Notes under the pieces: generated by a model
Told to the model about the DNA's origin: nothing
Database searches by the model: none
The model's input: only the letters and a program-made list of their open reading frames with translations
NCBI GenBank assembly: GCA_002368155.1
Contig: AP018180.1
Location: 5,479,007-5,543,006 of the forward strand
Source: Nostoc carneum NIES-2107
Lineage (GTDB): Bacteria; Cyanobacteriota; Cyanobacteriia; Cyanobacteriales; Nostocaceae
Direction of reading: 5' to 3'
DNA: 64,000 bases
Part shown: in pieces, positions 8,706-21,109 of the stretch
Numbering within the stretch: position 1 is the stretch's first letter
How the letters are laid out: every line of letters starts with the position of its first letter
Program-made: the position numbers and the translations under genes

Positions 8706-11096
8706 TTATGGATGTTTATTCACCTGAGAATTAACAATTGAAAAACCTCTTCTTGTAGATTTGCTTTTGGCTACCTGCACTTGAAAGCTGACGCGATCGC
8801 TTTTTTCTCCACTTCTCGCTTCCAATGTCCAGCTACCAGGACGCAGATGCCAAAATACAGAATTAGCTGAATCTATAGCTAGCTTTTCACCATTTAACCG
8901 CCACTCTATAGGCTCAACTACCTTTCCTATTAGCTTAAACTCTAGTTTCTGGCTTGTTTGTTCCCCTGGATACAGCAAAAATAAATCGCCATTGTGAGGA
9001 GATAGAATTCTCAAATTGCTAGTATTAAAAGTTGCTTGTTGCTGTCTGGCTAACCATTCATCATATTCTGGCGATAAATTGCCTGGTTGTTGATTTTCGT
9101 ACGCAATTTTGTCTTCTGGATAAAAGTATTCCTGCACAACAGAAGCGCAATCTGGTGTAGGTTTTAACCCAGAAATTGCACAGATGGGTAATTGCACTAA
9201 ACCTTGAGGCGGGAGAAAATTTTCAGGTTCTTGATGTTCGTGCAAATGTAACATAATCCGATTCCACAAAGGCGCAGCACCAGTCACCCCTGATACTTGG
9301 CGCATCGGTTCGCCTGTGAAATTTCCTACCCAAGTGGCGACGGTATAATCTGTAGTGAAGCCTACAGTCCAAGTATCGCGGAAATTGGAAGAAGTCCCAG
9401 TTTTAACTGCTGCTGGGAAGGGCAGATTTAATACAGAATCTACACCAAAAGCTGTGGCGCGGGCGTGGTTGTCGCGCAGCATATCGGTGATTAATTGCCA
9501 AGTTGTTGGGTTGGGGACTGGGGATTGGGGATTGGGGATTGGGGACTGGGGATTGGGGACTGGGGATTGGGGATTAGGGATTGGGGATTGGGAAAATGTA
9601 GAAACTAGGGATGCGGCTTCGCCTTGTTGGGCTATGGTGAGGTAAGCCCTGGCTAATTCCCAAAGGCTGACTTCGCCACTACCGAGAGTTAAACCTAAAC
9701 CATAATATTCGGGGGTTTGATTGAGGTGTTCAAAGCCTAATTGACGCAGATGTTCGAGGAAAGCTGGTACACCTACCTTTTCTAATACTCTAACGGCGGG
9801 GACGTTGAGGGAATTTGCTAAAGCCACCCGCACTCGCACTGGGCCGAGAAACCTTTGTGTATAATCTGTAGGGCTATAAAGTTTGGCACCGGGAATAGCG
9901 TAATGTGCGGGAACATCTGCCAAAATTGTATTCGGGCGAATGATACCTTTTGCTAACGCCAGCTCATAGACAAACGGCTTGAGGGTAGAACCTGGTTGAC
10001 GTAGCGCCTGTACTCCATCATTGCGTCCGAGTTTGGCTTCATTAAAGTAATCGGGGGAACCAACATAAGCTAAGACTTCCCCTGTGTGGTTGTCTATTAC
10101 CAAAGCTGCTGCATCATGGACGTTATTTGCAGCTAGGGAAGAAAGTACTTGTTTTACCTGCGCTTCGACAAATTGCTGTAAAGGTCTATCTATTGTAGTG
10201 TGAATCTGTCCTTCCCCTTGTGGGGTGCTTTGCTGATTCGCTAACCAAAATAAAAAGTGGGGTGCAGCAATAATTCCCCGTTGGCGAGACTGAAATACTA
10301 CCTTTTCTGTGTAGGCGTGTACTGCTAATGAAGAAGTAATATAACCATCCTGTACCATGCGGTTGAGGACATATTTTTGACGCTGCTTCAACCGTTGCCA
10401 ATGTTCTAGCGGGTCAAAATATGTGGGATTATTGGGAATGGCTGCTAATAGACTAGCTTGGGCAAGATTTAAATCACTAGCTGGGAGAGAAAAATAAGTT
10501 CGGGATGCGGCTTCCACACCATAGATATTTCCTCCCATAGGTAAGCGATTGATATATGCAGAGAGGATTTCATCTTTATTCATCCCCGCTACTAATCGCC
10601 AAGATAGCCAAATTTCTTGTAGCTTTCCTGAGAGAGTACGCGGAACAGGATCTAACATCCGCGCTAACTGCATGGTAACTGTGGAAGCACCAGAGACAAT
10701 TTTTTTGGCGTGAATTGCTTCTTTAATCGCGCGGGCTATTGCTTTTAAATCTAATGCCCCATGATGATAGAAGCTGCTATCTTCTGCTGCTAAAATTGCC
10801 TGAATAAATTGGGGCGAAACTTGATTTAATGGGACTACAGCAGTATGCTCTTGGTCACGGGTGAGTAAAGTTCCTAAGGGTAGCCCATTGCGATCGCTAA
10901 ATTGTAGCGCTAACTGATTTTGTTGAATATCTGTAGCCCGAACTGGCGCAAAATAGGGCATTAAGCGCACGGATAAACACATCAGCAGTAAAGCTAAGAT
11001 TACCTTACCTTTTCGACTGCGATTCAACCGCCGCCACAGTTTTTGCGTAATTTGGTTCAGCTTACGTAAAGTTAGTCTCATCAGCGAATGCGCCAC
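8706..11096 (-). CDS. pbpC: Penicillin-binding protein 1C
   Basis: This bifunctional peptidoglycan synthase of 796 residues has an N-terminal membrane anchor (about 27-45). A GT51 glycosyltransferase follows ([27 protein letters not shown]). The transpeptidase has the SxxK motif in [11 protein letters not shown], and KTG in [10 protein letters not shown]-terminal BiPBP_C domain (about 690-780) is the hallmark of PBP1C. An array of eleven 7-bp units (9513-9589) is read in frame as a Pro-Asn-Gln-Ser linker ([16 protein letters not shown]) inside the transpeptidase. Start is GTG at 11096 or ATG at 11081. It is divergent from the alpha-2-macroglobulin gene, as these partners often are in proteobacteria. 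Confidence 0.9.
9513..9589. repeat. Eleven 7-bp GGGGAYT units inside pbpC
   Basis: Eleven contiguous heptamers (eight GGGGATT or AGGGATT, three GGGGACT) run from 9513 to 9589. Seventy-seven bases is not a multiple of three, but the flanks restore the frame. Each gain or loss of a single unit would shift the pbpC frame. Confidence 0.9.
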
Positions 11097-11510
11097 CCTG
11101 TCAAACTTACTTTAATTTTGACGTAGCGATCGCACTGCAATCAGGAAATATTTCTAACAATTTACAACTGATTTGTCATTTGTCATTTGTCATTTGTCAT
11201 TGGTATGTATTCACAAATTTTTATCTATAAAAAATCAATACTTCTTAATATAATTTTCTCCTCTTCTTCCTCTCTGTGTCCTCAGCGCCTCTGCGGTTCA
11301 TCATCTCTTCTCTTCTTGTCCTGTGCGGCTTCTGGGCGAGACGCTTTGCGAACGCGGTTCGTTTAAAAAATCTCACAACTGCCGACAGATTCCCATCATT
11401 AAGAATTGTAGTTATTACTAGGAACAATCATATTCTATTGGTTATCTATATAATAATCTCACGCAGAGTCGCAGAGGCGCAGAGAGAAAAGAGATATCTA
11501 TTTTAAATTT
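11097..11510. other. Divergent region between pbpC and the macroglobulin gene
   Basis: It contains four TTTGTCA repeats (about 11170-11200), then a pair of inverted blocks: CCTCAGCGCCTCTGCGG (about 11280-11296) and GCAGAGGCGCAGAGAG (about 11470-11486). The blocks are the common cyanobacterial CTCTGCG-type interspersed repeat. A GGCGAGACGCTTTGCGAACG repeat lies at about 11334-11353. Open frames here on both strands are repeat-derived. Promoters for both genes should lie here but are not clear. Confidence 0.55.
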
Positions 11511-17411: not shown

Positions 17412-17951
17412 TTGGACAAATCCCAAGACTTAGTATTAACTAAATTAGGAGAAGGGCTACCCGCTATTACTCCATCCTTTGGCGCAACTTTGGCAGAAGC
17501 TTGTGCGGTTTGTTTGGAAGAACAAGGACATTTGCAAGGTGTAGAACTCGCAGTAAATGGGGACTTCACCACCACTTTCAGACTATATTGGCAACCTGTC
17601 ACACAGCAAATGCTACGTTGCTGGAATGATGAGGAGTTTACAACCGAACAAGCAGCCTATGGTATTGCTTTTATGCTCATCAGACAATTAACTGAGTTTA
17701 CAGTAATTGAGCGATCGCGCAAAGGTACTGGATTTGACTATTGGTTGGGTATTGAAAATACAGCAAGTGAGCTTCCGTTTCAAAATAAAGTCAGGCTGGA
17801 AGTTTCAGGTATACGTAAAGCAGAAGATAGCAGGATTCGAGCTAGAATCAAACAAAAAATCGAGCAAACTAATCCCTCAGATGGTAAATTTCCCGCCTAC
17901 ATTATTGTTGTTGAATTCAGCAGACCTCAATCGTTTATTTTAGAAAAATGA
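17412..17951 (+). CDS. Conserved-looking protein of unknown function, 179 residues
   Basis: The product starts with a TTG, since no ATG precedes the well-formed N-terminal part. It has a mixed alpha/beta pattern with FTTTFRLYWQPV, EQAAYGIAFMLIRQLT and KGTGFDYWLGIE. I recognise no family; GTGFDYWL is also seen in cyanobacterial proteins of unknown role. It overlaps the next gene by ATGA, so the two are translationally coupled. A link to DNA or protein quality control is possible but only guessed. No signal peptide. Confidence 0.6.
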   Translation: MDKSQDLVLTKLGEGLPAITPSFGATLAEACAVCLEEQGHLQGVELAVNGDFTTTFRLYWQPVTQQMLRCWNDEEFTTEQAAYGIAFMLIRQLTEFTVIERSRKGTGFDYWLGIENTASELPFQNKVRLEVSGIRKAEDSRIRARIKQKIEQTNPSDGKFPAYIIVVEFSRPQSFILEK

Positions 17952-18349
17952 GTCAGATTCAAAAGTTACATCAACAAGCGATGGATTTAGCTGAAGCAGC
18001 TTTTACTGTTAAGCTTAGAGGTGAATTAACGCAAGCTATTCAACTTTTTCGGCAAGCATTAGATAAAGAATCCCAAGCGGCTGCACTCATAGCTGATCAA
18101 CTTGATGCTGAACCAACTCGTTCAGTATTACACCGTAGCGCTGCAACCCTTGCTATTGACTGTGGTGAATTTCGCACAGCAGAACGTTTGATTGCGATCG
18201 CATTATCTGGTAATCCACCTCAAGAAATCGCTGAAGAACTGAAGGATTTATTTATTAAAATTAATTTGCGTCCATATTTAGAACGTCACGGTTTAAATTT
18301 TGATGAACAAAAATTGAATAATTTAACTTTAGATAAAAATCATTTTTAA
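17948..18349 (+). CDS. Helical TPR-like protein coupled to the upstream unknown
   Basis: The 133-residue product is all-helical and TPR-like: residues 5-45 (AMDLAEAAFTVKLRGELTQA) and 65-100 (HRSAATLAIDCGEFRTAERL) each look like one tetratricopeptide hairpin. Its ATG overlaps the stop of the 17412 gene, so the two likely form one complex or pathway. The C-terminal 30 residues are basic and polar. Function unknown; protein-protein adaptor suggested by the fold pattern only. Confidence 0.65.
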   Translation: MSQIQKLHQQAMDLAEAAFTVKLRGELTQAIQLFRQALDKESQAAALIADQLDAEPTRSVLHRSAATLAIDCGEFRTAERLIAIALSGNPPQEIAEELKDLFIKINLRPYLERHGLNFDEQKLNNLTLDKNHF

Positions 18350-18619: not shown

Positions 18620-18775
18620 AAAATTGTCATTTATCGTCGTGTACCTTCAGGCGATAATGCGTTCACCTGTTGATTTTACTTTTAATTAAGTCTTTTTTTA
18701 TACTGATTTGCTTTTTTAAGCAGGATACCTATAATTGAGTGGCAGTGAAACAATCACAGCTATTCAGCTTTGCCG

Positions 18776-19420
18776 ATGGAAATTTTTACTATTGGACATT
18801 CCAATCACAGCATTGAAGCATTTATGACATTGCTGCAAAAGCATGGAATAACAGCTTTAGCAGATGTGCGATCGCATCCCTATAGCCGCTATTTACCACA
18901 CTTCAGCCAATTACCACTCAAAGCAGCTTTAGTCAATGCAGGGATTTCTTATGTATTTTTAGGCAAAGAATTGGGAGCAAGACCGAATGATCTAACCTGC
19001 TATGTTGATGGTAAGGCTTTGTATGAAAAGATTGCTGCTACTCAACTATTTGCAGATGGCATTCAGCGATTAATAAAAGGAGCAGAAACTTATAAAATTG
19101 CACTGATGTGTGCCGAAAAAGACCCAATTACCTGCCATAGAGCAATTCTGATTTGTCAAAAATTACGCAGCTTAGGTTTAACAATTAACCATATTTTAAG
19201 TAATGGTGAGCTAGAAAGTCATGCAGCTTTAGAAGACAGACTTTTAGAATTACATCAACTTCGAGAACCAGAGTTACCTCAACAAATCCAATTGTCTTTA
19301 TTTGAAAATATTTCTCTTCCTGAAGCATCAACCATGCAGTATTCACGTGCAGAATCGCTGCACAAAGCTTATCATCAACAGGGAGAACAAATTGCCTATG
19401 TAGAAAAAACGGAAAAATAA
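18776..19420 (+). CDS. DUF488-family protein (first of a pair)
   Basis: The 215-residue product shows the family pattern: EIFTIGHSNHSIEAF at the start, LADVRSHPYSRYLPHF, LGKELGARP, and LMCAEKDPITCHRAIL near residue 117. The invariant Cys-Ala-Glu and Cys-His-Arg cluster suggests an active or metal site, but no biochemical role is established. The ATG at 18776 is taken rather than a TTG two codons earlier. The C-terminal 50 residues (ISLPEASTMQYSRAESLHKA) are an extension. It is followed two bases later by a second DUF488 gene. Confidence 0.85.
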   Translation: MEIFTIGHSNHSIEAFMTLLQKHGITALADVRSHPYSRYLPHFSQLPLKAALVNAGISYVFLGKELGARPNDLTCYVDGKALYEKIAATQLFADGIQRLIKGAETYKIALMCAEKDPITCHRAILICQKLRSLGLTINHILSNGELESHAALEDRLLELHQLREPELPQQIQLSLFENISLPEASTMQYSRAESLHKAYHQQGEQIAYVEKTEK

Positions 19421-19422
19421 AT

Positions 19423-19869
19423 ATGAGTAATTCTATTAATTTATTTACTATTGGTTTTACCCAAAAGACTGCTCAACAGTTTTTTGATACTTTAGTTAAG
19501 TCTGGAGTAAAAAGAGTTGTGGATACCCGACTTAATAATATCTCCCAACTGGCAGGATTTACTAAAAGAGGAGATTTAGAATATTTCTTACGCAAAATTG
19601 GTGATATCGAATATGTACATATTTTAGATATGGCACCAACAAAAGATATTTTGGATGATTATAAAAAAAATAAAGGTGATTGGGAAACCTATGAAAGCAA
19701 GTTTTTAGCATTGATGCGCGATCGCCAAATTGAACAGAAGGTTTCACCACAGCTATTGGATGGTAGCTGTTTGCTTTGCAGCGAAGCCAAGCCTCATCAT
19801 TGCCATCGCCGCTTAGTAGCTGAATATTTACGTGACAAATGGGGAAATATAACCATAAGTCACCTATGA
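19423..19869 (+). CDS. DUF488-family protein (second of a pair)
   Basis: This 148-residue protein is a shorter DUF488 member: LFTIGFTQKTAQQFFDTL, VVDTRLNNISQLAGFTKRG, and CLLCSEAKPHHCHRRL at the end, keeping the Cys-Ser-Glu and Cys-His-Arg residues. It differs clearly from its neighbour, so this is a divergent pair, not a recent duplication. Spacing is two bases to the gene before and nine to the gene after, which argues for one transcript and a shared function. Confidence 0.85.
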   Translation: MSNSINLFTIGFTQKTAQQFFDTLVKSGVKRVVDTRLNNISQLAGFTKRGDLEYFLRKIGDIEYVHILDMAPTKDILDDYKKNKGDWETYESKFLALMRDRQIEQKVSPQLLDGSCLLCSEAKPHHCHRRLVAEYLRDKWGNITISHL

Positions 19870-19878
19870 CAAACTTTT

Positions 19879-20667
19879 ATGGTTCAAATTATCTGCCTTG
19901 CCAATTCTAAAAAATATGGCGATCGCTGCATAGCAGGTATTGAAATTACTACTGGCAAATGGATTCGTCCTTTCTCTAATTTAGAGTATGGGCAAATTCC
20001 CGTAAATATGTGTTTAGTGGATGATGAGGAGCCGAAATCGCTCGATATCTTAGAGATACCTTTAGCTGCTACTGGTTTAGGATATGAATATGAAAATCGA
20101 GCGATATTACACGGTAAATGGCAAAAAATTGGTCAAGCTACTGTCAGCGATTTAATTCCTTACTGTGAAGGCGAAATTATTCATAGTCAATGGCTCAATT
20201 CTGTACCACTCTCTTTCATCCAATCATTACCGTATGAGCAACGGCGGACATTACAACTCATTAAAACAACTAAATTTCATCTCTATAAATATCACCATAG
20301 TGGCAAATGGGAGGCTGATTTCACAACATCCAGCGGTGAATCAATGCGAGCAAAAATTACAGACCTAAATCTCATCGAGAAACTGAACACAGGTACTCGT
20401 ATTCCACATGAATGCTTAATTACTATTAGCCTTAGTCAACCTTGGCGCAAAACCGATTTAGATGAGTTTGCTTGTTGGAAACTCATTGCTGGCGTGATTG
20501 AATTGTCCAGTTATGATTTGATTTTGTGGGAAATGCAAAGATTAGGCTGGAGTATAGATAGAGGAAGGTATTATCTCAAGCAAACCTACAATAAGCGATC
20601 GCGCCGGGAATTGACTAATACTGAAATCGCTCAATTTTTACATTACCTCAAAAGCCTCAAAGCTTAA
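19879..20667 (+). CDS. Dual-OB-like protein in the DUF488 operon
   Basis: The 262-residue product starts with IICLANSKKYGDRCIAGIEI and WIRPFSNLEYGQIP, then LDILEIPL, a pattern I associate with the dual OB-fold (DuOB) proteins of uncharacterised prokaryotic systems. Two beta-rich halves are plausible (about 1-120 and 130-190), followed by a helical C-terminus (LDEFACWKLIAGVIELSSYD). OB folds usually bind nucleic acid, so a nucleic-acid role for the operon is an inference. No catalytic motif is evident. The family call is from memory of the motif and should be treated as moderate. Confidence 0.6.
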   Translation: MVQIICLANSKKYGDRCIAGIEITTGKWIRPFSNLEYGQIPVNMCLVDDEEPKSLDILEIPLAATGLGYEYENRAILHGKWQKIGQATVSDLIPYCEGEIIHSQWLNSVPLSFIQSLPYEQRRTLQLIKTTKFHLYKYHHSGKWEADFTTSSGESMRAKITDLNLIEKLNTGTRIPHECLITISLSQPWRKTDLDEFACWKLIAGVIELSSYDLILWEMQRLGWSIDRGRYYLKQTYNKRSRRELTNTEIAQFLHYLKSLKA

Positions 20668-20794: not shown

Positions 20795-21109
20795 TTATAC
20801 TATGGTTTCAGGATGAACGCAATCAGCAATTGTAGTGTCAAAAATAGCAATTGTAGTGTCAAAAATAGCAATTGTAGTATCAAAAGCAGCAATTGTAGTG
20901 TCAAAAATAGCAATTGTAGTATCAAAAGCAGCAATTGTAGTATCAAAAGCAGCTATTGTAGTGTCAAAAGCAGCTATTGTAGTGTCAAAAGCAGCTATTG
21001 TAGTATCAAAAATAGCTATTGTAGTGTCAAAAGCAGCAATTGTAGTGTCAAAAATAGCAATTGTAGTGTCAAAAATAGCAATTGCATAGGTATAACCAGC
21101 TTTTAGCAT
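20795..21109 (-). CDS. Possible repeat protein encoded by the 21-bp array
   Basis: On the minus strand an ATG at 21109, with a weak AGG upstream, opens a 104-residue frame. It reads through the array as twelve or so heptads of the form TTIA(I/A)FD and exits into a unique ten-residue tail (ADCVHPETIV). Two of the three sites that vary between units are third codon positions in this frame (GAC/GAT and ATT/ATA), which would fit selection on the protein. The plus frame offset the other way shows the same, but lacks a usable start. Whether it is translated is open. Confidence 0.3.
   Translation of the reverse strand: MLKAGYTYAIAIFDTTIAIFDTTIAAFDTTIAIFDTTIAAFDTTIAAFDTTIAAFDTTIAAFDTTIAIFDTTIAAFDTTIAIFDTTIAIFDTTIADCVHPETIV
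20826..21086. repeat. 21-bp tandem array, twelve full units and one partial
   Basis: Units GCAATTGTAGTGTCAAAAAT(A) repeat without gaps from 20826, ending with a partial GCAATTGCA. Variation is confined to three sites: G/A in GTGTC, A/T in GCAATT, and ATA/GCA before the next unit. With 21 bases per unit all three frames on one strand stay open. There are no spacers, so it is not a CRISPR. Confidence 0.95.

Follow-up and report, generated by a model that had tools for sequence, protein, structure and literature searches.

A DUF488-DUF488-DuOB gene trio of Nostoc carneum NIES-2107 that matches PDC-M45 and is conserved, patchy and mobile among bacteria

Identity of the trio

What does a tight cluster of two DUF488 genes and one gene for a protein with two predicted oligonucleotide/oligosaccharide-binding (OB) folds do in a cyanobacterium? 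We addressed this question for three genes in a 64,000-nucleotide stretch of the Nostoc carneum NIES-2107 chromosome (positions 5479007-5543006; genome 9.36 Mb), hereafter the window, to which all positions given without a locus number (L) refer. The three genes lie on the plus strand, with 2 bases between the first and second and 9 bases between the second and third. The first encodes a DUF488 protein of 214 residues (18776-19420; Pfam DUF488, 85.8 bits), for which a TTG at 18770 is a possible upstream start and the ATG at 18776 is favored by most homologues. The second encodes another DUF488 protein of 148 residues (19423-19869; 81.6 bits), and the third a protein of 262 residues (19879-20667) that passes the Pfam DuOB family (PF22557) with 126.1 bits (E 2.6e-36, cut-off 27). 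Both DUF488 proteins exceed the gathering cut-off of that family (PF04343; 22.2), and the second also passes the active subclade DUF488-N3a (PF22751) with 37.4 bits, whereas the first, with 14.7 bits, stays below its cut-off of 27. Each protein matched one model of PADLOC-DB 2.0.0, i.e., PDC-M45B (257 bits, E 2.2e-77), PDC-M45C (238 bits, E 7.3e-72), and PDC-M45A (82 bits, E 1.5e-23), respectively, and we refer to the proteins as M45B, M45C, and DuOB. Judged by these profile scores, the gene-for-gene match of the trio to PDC-M45 is secure. The prefix PDC presumably stands for phage defense candidate.

A preliminary description of the window had reported two DUF488 genes and a dual-OB-like gene with gaps of 2 and 9 bases, and the coordinates and Pfam results bear this out in every detail. 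It had also presented the trio as an undescribed system, a claim that is contradicted by the existence of PDC-M45A, -B, and -C models for exactly these proteins and weakened further by the named Pfam families, namely the DuOB domain and the "Active DUF488-N3 subclade." Our literature search found no paper on PDC-M45 function, and the excerpts of DUF488 literature that were found give no established activity. Control searches recovered DUF488 proteins from E. coli to archaea, and a profile search of the host genome returned no DUF488 or DuOB matches beyond the trio. Promoter and terminator scans of the locus stayed at chance level.

The explanation that we propose, and whose chances we judge to be about even, is that the trio is a mobile module of the PDC-M45 type acting on foreign or aberrant nucleic acid, whose purpose would be defense against invading genetic elements and in which DuOB would recognize the substrate, the two cysteine-containing proteins would process it, and the complex would, in cyanobacteria, be tethered to the sliding clamp.

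Conservation, distribution, and genomic settings

Gene neighborhoods were compared in two sets of loci. The first comprised 50 cyanobacterial loci of ~3.6 kb each, anchored on DuOB and including that of the window (L029). The second was anchored on M45C and comprised the best 80 of 577 confirmed matches in named genomes, a choice that favors close relatives of the trio. All three genes were found together, sharing one strand, at 48 of the 50 DuOB-anchored loci and at 76 of the best 80 anchored on M45C (124 of 130 combined), with a median span of 1.9 kb. This arrangement is far beyond chance. Two of the four M45C-anchored exceptions lie at a contig end (L106, L129), one has a split M45B gene and no DuOB gene (L079), and in the last no DuOB was found (L081); DuOB also scored low in L108 (19 bits) and L125 (24 bits). 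The loci belong to eight named phyla (Cyanobacteriota, Pseudomonadota, Verrucomicrobiota, Nitrospirota, Acidobacteriota, Bdellovibrionota, Chlorobiota, and Latescibacterota), and the three-gene unit is therefore conserved over distant phyla, so that the outcome by which the preliminary description would have been refuted, a gene order not kept in relatives, did not occur. The order M45B-M45C-DuOB (B-C-A) was found in 43 DuOB-anchored and 53 M45C-anchored loci, the order DuOB-M45B-M45C (A-B-C) in 5 and 21 loci, respectively, and two loci deviated from both orders. Within PDC-M45, the cyanobacterial members are distinguished by mostly having the B-C-A order, by a QLSLF-type linker in M45B, and in part by an extra C-terminal module of DuOB.

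A tree was built from the 80 M45C-anchored loci and the window, comprising 77 rows after two loci without an intact pair and the broken copies L079 and L080 were dropped. It placed the cyanobacteria on one side of a single branch (support 98), and the other phyla were mixed, which suggests transfer. Mean pairwise identity across 113 loci was 0.66 for M45C, 0.54 for M45B, and 0.38 for DuOB, the least conserved of the three; in our proposal, M45C would be the constant catalytic core and DuOB the fast-evolving recognition part. Evolutionary distances of M45B correlated with those of the other two proteins at 0.38-0.73, and those of M45C and DuOB at only 0.09 outside the cyanobacteria; these correlations were not used as evidence.

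The distribution of the trio is patchy and mobile. Within the genus, 2 of 8 genomes carried DuOB; in samples of the family and of the phylum, 32 of 145 and 44 of 386 genomes did, respectively. Of the 32 family matches, 5 were broken by an internal stop or present as fragments, although sequencing error is possible. At the same chromosomal slot, one sister species has both flanks and carries a GNAT acetyltransferase gene in place of the trio, and in another the slot is occupied by two genes, one of them for a HigB toxin, that together correspond to PADLOC PD-Lambda-2 A/B. This variable slot (1978-2814 in L143; 1812-2496 in L144) lies between a TPR gene (17948-18349) and an array of 12.4 copies of a 21-base tandem repeat directly 3' of the trio (20824-21084). 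Stretches similar to the array occur in many places in the host and sister genomes. The HigB-type pair in the slot of a related species, as well as a 4.2-kb plasmid carrying DuOB, M45C, and a DUF4326 protein, would suit a selfish stabilizer of mobile elements that resembles a toxin-antitoxin system, with one component checking another. We regard such a stabilizer as hardly likely at all, since all three subunits are conserved and the presumed catalytic residues of two of them are almost invariant, since the unit contains no small antitoxin-like gene, and since M45C also occurs alone, without partners.

Outside the cyanobacteria, several trios have defense genes nearby. In one Nitrospira genome (L117, 1596-13815), it is embedded in a run of hma genes on one strand, in the order HmaA-small gene-HmaB-DuOB-M45B-M45C-HmaC, with gaps of 6 and 11 bases flanking the trio. 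This is a single case, and no Hma gene was among the three window neighbors that were scanned. The small gene of the run (~180 residues) had no match in Pfam at 0.01 or in PADLOC at 1e-5. In L108 the trio adjoins a HerA gene and a type IIG restriction gene is 5 kb away, and in L114 another type IIG gene is found at a distance of 4 kb. Since the proteins behind these three contexts were ten large ones chosen by size from four loci, the presence of defense genes in three of the four is not a rate. On an Allochromatium plasmid the trio stands within a type III CRISPR locus, and on an Agrobacterium plasmid between genes of a cyclic oligonucleotide-based antiphage signaling system (CBASS) and an integrase gene. 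A scan of 133 of the 172 flanking proteins in phyla other than the cyanobacteria, from 16 of 20 loci and with no control set, matched 238 PADLOC families, and three integrases and two resolvases were among the most frequent Pfam matches of these flanks.

In a viral collection, 52 loci matched, and the 16 in which M45C was at least 42% identical were examined. Nine of these contigs carried the trio and five a variant with a DUF4326 protein (in two of which DuOB was weak, at 15 and 18 bits); of the other two, one carried just M45B with M45C and the other a fusion. Among plasmid records matched at 1e-15, M45C was found in 121 and M45B in 9. The surroundings of 12 plasmid copies comprised a solitary M45C beside uvrA/uvrB in five (three being the same island), the trio in three, the DUF4326 variant in two, and an M45B-like DUF488 alone in two.

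Subunits, fusion, and partner exchange

The fused copy lies on a phage contig with genes for terminase, portal, and head protein (L219), where M45B and M45C form one protein of 376 residues with QLHLF in the joint. The fusion and a downstream, weakly DuOB-like protein occupy 9317-11244 of this locus. The latter resembled DuOB with 38% probability in a profile comparison and 17 bits to our own DuOB profile, and Pfam found no DuOB in it. The fusion fits the idea of a single complex put forward in the preliminary description, and we propose that M45B and M45C would form such a complex with DuOB.

In seven loci, two of them on plasmids, a DUF4326 protein stands in place of M45B (L213, L215, L216, L217, L221, L263, and L266). 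Scanning five of these proteins with Pfam found DUF4326 in all five and mSLOG above its cut-off in four, and three of the variant proteins had no PADLOC model match at 1e-5. On the 4.2-kb plasmid (L266), which also carries M45C and the DUF4326 protein, the record start separates two pieces of DuOB. Since the third place can be taken by either M45B or a DUF4326 protein, DuOB and M45C are the constant core of the unit. An excerpt of one study places DUF4326 in the rhodanese-phosphatase superfamily and proposes that it removes phosphates from ribose and processes those at the termini of ADP-ribose or of products derived from it (PMC9503650). The exchange in seven loci, the mSLOG matches, and this proposed processing of ADP-ribose terminal phosphates would be in keeping with a nucleotide-signal or NAD/ADP-ribose system, in which the second protein would process a phosphate carried by some free nucleotide derivative, with DuOB or M45C responding to it. 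However, considering that the recognition part consists of two OB-like folds resembling nucleic-acid binders and that Pfam found no SLOG domain in the three proteins of the window, a system of this kind seems decidedly improbable.

Both DUF488 proteins contain the Cys-(A/S)-Glu and Cys-His-Arg clusters to which the preliminary description had drawn attention, and these are near-invariant in relatives. In M45B of the window the cluster comprises C112-A-E114 and C120-H121-R122 (19109-19141, plus strand), and in M45C it comprises C119-S-E121 and C127-H128-R129 (19777-19809, plus strand). In loci where each type had just one hit, the pattern C.E.{5}CHR was kept in 126 of 126 proteins of the first type and C..CSE.{5}CHRR in 127 of 128 of the second, and profile comparison aligned C119, E121, C127, H128, and R129 of M45C to the cluster positions of M45B. 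Since both proteins keep the Cys/Glu/His/Arg cluster, both may be active.

The AlphaFold2 model of M45B, with a predicted local distance difference test score (pLDDT) of 90.4, consists of the DUF488 core followed by a C-terminal linker and helix. In this model C112 ends a strand, E114 lies in a loop, and C120-H121-R122 begins the next helix. Structural comparison aligned the model with the phosphatases KAP (Z 8.8; 3.7 Å over 130 residues), laforin (Z 8.4), and PTP4A1 (Z 8.1) and with methylases, including the best match, CbiL (Z 9.0), and diphthine synthases (Z 7.8). A mixture of phosphatase and methylase matches is typical of the rhodanese-phosphatase superfamily and its diphthine-synthase-like branch, and in the model the conserved cluster fits a phosphatase-type site. 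We propose that M45B and M45C would be cysteine-dependent proteins, probably with a fold of the rhodanese-phosphatase type, and would process the substrate that DuOB presents; the chemistry would most likely be phosphoryl transfer or a related reaction, with nucleotides or the ends of nucleic acids as targets. Searching the PDB by sequence returned no hit or only matches that we did not find credible: ferritin and a haemagglutinin component (best E 0.38), ferritin (best E 0.27), a response regulator and a tospovirus resistance protein (best E 0.21), and a transmembrane protein (E 0.16).

For the third protein, the AlphaFold2 model (pLDDT 95.7) supports two OB-like folds. With VIA-align, the first (residues 1-95; 19879-20163, plus strand) aligned to telomere end-binding protein alpha (Z 7.5; 2.3 Å over 81 residues) and also to PriB, RecO, and SSB, and the second (residues 119-210; 20233-20508, plus strand) to residues 71-165 of BrxL (Z 7.5; 2.5 Å over 80 residues) and also to Rim1 (Z 7.1) and mitochondrial SSB. 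The top Foldseek match of the whole model was the HIN2 domain of p202 (E 3.1e-5). We take the HIN domain of p202 to be a pair of OB folds and the matched parts of the aligned PDB proteins to be OB folds as well. The likeness to dual OB-fold binders that had been noted from the sequence thus agrees with both the Pfam DuOB assignment and the model, and since the best Z score is only 7.5, the Pfam score of 126 bits weighs as much as the structure. DuOB is predicted to bind nucleic acid that is single-stranded or exposed in some other way.

The DuOB protein ends in a helical module (residues 211-262; 20509-20664, plus strand) that is partly common to the cyanobacterial slr1353 family. The profile of that family (NF058667) matched residues 218-260, i.e., 43 C-terminal residues, with E 7.2e-15 and 56 bits, which falls short of the family cut-off of 100 bits. 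By eye, the module was present in 8 of 24 aligned cyanobacterial DuOB proteins. The slr1353-family member of the host genome (L271) had no Pfam match at 0.01. In a Calothrix locus (L101, 12253-13944), DuOB is fused to a C-terminal WD40 repeat region and lies ~1.8 kb from the DUF488 pair.

A clamp-type peptide, the formaldehyde islands, and the case for defense or repair

Residues 172-176 of M45B (19289-19303, plus strand) read QLSLF and match the consensus for binding the beta sliding clamp. Excerpts of three papers give QL[S/D]LF as the bacterial consensus for clamp binding, QxxLF as its broader form, and QLSLF as the motif of PolC (PMC12309361, PMC3919608, PMC4549789). The peptide lies in the linker of the M45B model, where AlphaFold2 confidence is low (block pLDDT 74, 60, and 64 over residues 161-190), as expected for a short docking peptide. 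Among 87 unique cyanobacterial M45B proteins, Q..LF was found in 84, QL.LF in 83, and QL[SD]LF in 79. The three without Q..LF were two broken genes (L079, L080) and L031, a locus in which M45C falls among the non-cyanobacterial copies. Residues flanking the motif were variable, the commonest residue reaching 13-44% on either side, and shuffling the linker gave QL[SD]LF with a mean probability of 0.0006. The motif is also present in three cyanobacterial loci of A-B-C order (L033, L035, L041). On the tree, the strict motif required two changes, having been gained at the root of the cyanobacterial clade and lost in L078, which still reads QTSLF.

Elsewhere, among 24 unique M45B proteins of named non-cyanobacteria, Q..MF occurred in four and [LM]F after the CHR cluster in 21. 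Two of 16 unique M45B proteins from viral-collection contigs and plasmids matched Q..[LMI]F, reading QLHLF (L219) and QMTLF (L220), and by eye a further viral-collection copy reads QLDLL (L214). These are the three viral-collection or plasmid loci with B-C-A order, although the DuOB match in L219 is weak. In summary, cyanobacterial M45B carries, in a putatively accessible segment, a peptide that matches the consensus clamp-binding motif, and we infer that M45B binds the clamp, DnaN. The QLSLF-type peptide would then tether the complex to DnaN, so that it acts at replicating DNA, in cyanobacteria and in the few viral-collection contigs of B-C-A order.

A DNA pattern for Q-L-x-L-F (middle codon WSN) occurred at 190 sites in the host genome, compared to 146 for a reversed control, and is uninformative on function. 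The C-terminal domain of Pol IV/V was not found in the host genome. Its DnaE-C gene contains no Q..[LM]F; by eye it contains QGSIF, which we take to be the equivalent of the clamp motif of E. coli alpha.

The QLSLF peptide could instead dock to a partner within the trio, a side question that is compatible with any of the readings of function considered here and that we hold to be possible, if somewhat doubtful. The [LM]F found after CHR in 21 of 24 non-cyanobacterial M45B proteins, which by eye aligns to the motif beside a conserved helix, would be expected of such an internal contact. However, all five positions of QL[S/D]LF, including the first glutamine, are near-fixed inside a linker with variable neighbors, and QLHLF, QMTLF, and QLDLL recur in three viral-collection copies of the same gene order.

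Several observations weigh against the proposed clamp-tethered module. A single gain of the motif means that the 84 copies are not independent, being one event kept since, and Q..LF was found in 0 of 24 unique M45B proteins of named non-cyanobacteria. The phosphatase resemblance is weak, since Z scores of 8-9 are near the level of models without a clear match, and a rhodanese-phosphatase enzyme is to this extent a resemblance near noise level. Foldseek searches with the M45B model returned nothing at E<=0.001, and PTP4A1 (E 0.025) came after the first rows, which were CTP synthase and an SRP GTPase (E 0.015-0.02). Moreover, M45B is without the canonical C-X5-R loop of protein tyrosine phosphatases, nine residues separating C112 from R122 (C-X9-R) compared to five in CX5R. 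The OB matches of DuOB peak at Z 7.5, in the same band as models without a clear match.

The defense part of the proposal has further points against it. Fourteen cyanobacterial trio regions were compared to 14 regions located 1 Mb away in the same genomes. In either set, the PADLOC scan covered 148 proteins of up to 1300 residues from 10 regions, out of 195 non-trio proteins and 204 control proteins, respectively. The two sets are partly unmatched, L164 (the partner of L150) being absent from the control and L169 being present with its partner, L155, absent from the cases. We found no excess of PADLOC hits beside the trios, with 68 families compared to 148 in the control, a count swollen by type III CRISPR genes. 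The test of co-occurrence with defense islands suggested in the preliminary description was thus negative around cyanobacterial trios, and because the flanks show no excess, the link to defense in cyanobacteria rests on distribution and not on neighbors. In the window, a scan limited to the three genes directly upstream found none that was a recognizable defense gene, and no M45C match was obtained in 50,697 phage records at 1e-10. Finally, the solitary M45C genes of formaldehyde islands point to repair.

These solitary copies are carried by plasmid formaldehyde islands of Enterobacteriaceae, Aeromonas, and Acinetobacter (L258, L259, L261, L264, L265), in which M45C adjoins uvrA or uvrB and is accompanied by a gene for a formaldehyde-responsive repressor. 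The island M45C stands next to nucleotide excision repair and aldehyde stress genes. The DUF488 of these islands is of the M45C type, as in the trio; solitary relatives are 52-58% identical to M45C of the window, the enterobacterial island protein scored 224 bits to PDC-M45C, and three island copies scored 203-216 bits to our own M45C profile. In 82 plasmid records, coverage of a uvrA-M45C-frmR block reached 80% or more, and the M45C gene of this block was found in 12 of 5426 E. coli genomes, every time on a plasmid. The islands differ from the trio in that no DuOB and no M45B or other second DUF488 was found in the five regions. Our literature search gave no match for plasmid formaldehyde uvrA/frmR islands with DUF488.

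The main rival to our proposal is therefore repair or tolerance of DNA damage, in which DuOB would bind single-stranded or damaged DNA and the DUF488 proteins would remove or trim a lesion, e.g., one caused by aldehyde, at stalled forks. Solitary M45C beside uvrA/uvrB and a formaldehyde-responsive repressor, in a block recurring in 82 plasmid records, argues for this explanation, and a repair complex could equally well have a clamp motif and OB folds. Nevertheless, the patchiness, the broken copies, the mixing of phyla, and the Hma, CBASS, and CRISPR settings would be unusual for housekeeping repair, and the five island regions lack both DuOB and M45B, so that we consider repair a tentative and, on balance, unlikely account of the trio. 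The preliminary description had offered "conflict or repair," and this was the right pair of options.

It is conceivable that defense and repair share one chemistry on aberrant DNA. In a clamp-riding form of defense, to which we give only a small chance, M45B would sit on DnaN, DuOB would inspect the strands at the fork, and M45C would attack a feature shared by aldehyde-damaged DNA and modified phage DNA, e.g., hydroxymethyl-type adducts. The clamp part has moderate support from the conserved motif, and the shared lesion is a guess. Such a lesion would explain why M45C is found both beside uvrA/uvrB in formaldehyde islands and inside defense gene runs.

Returning to the mobile PDC-M45-type module that we favor, our results tie a DUF488 subclade to a conserved three-protein unit in which one partner is replaceable by a DUF4326 protein, and they place the same subclade beside nucleotide-excision-repair genes in formaldehyde islands. 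If the link to the clamp is true, the trio would be a mobile defense candidate coupled to the replication machinery through a conserved docking peptide.

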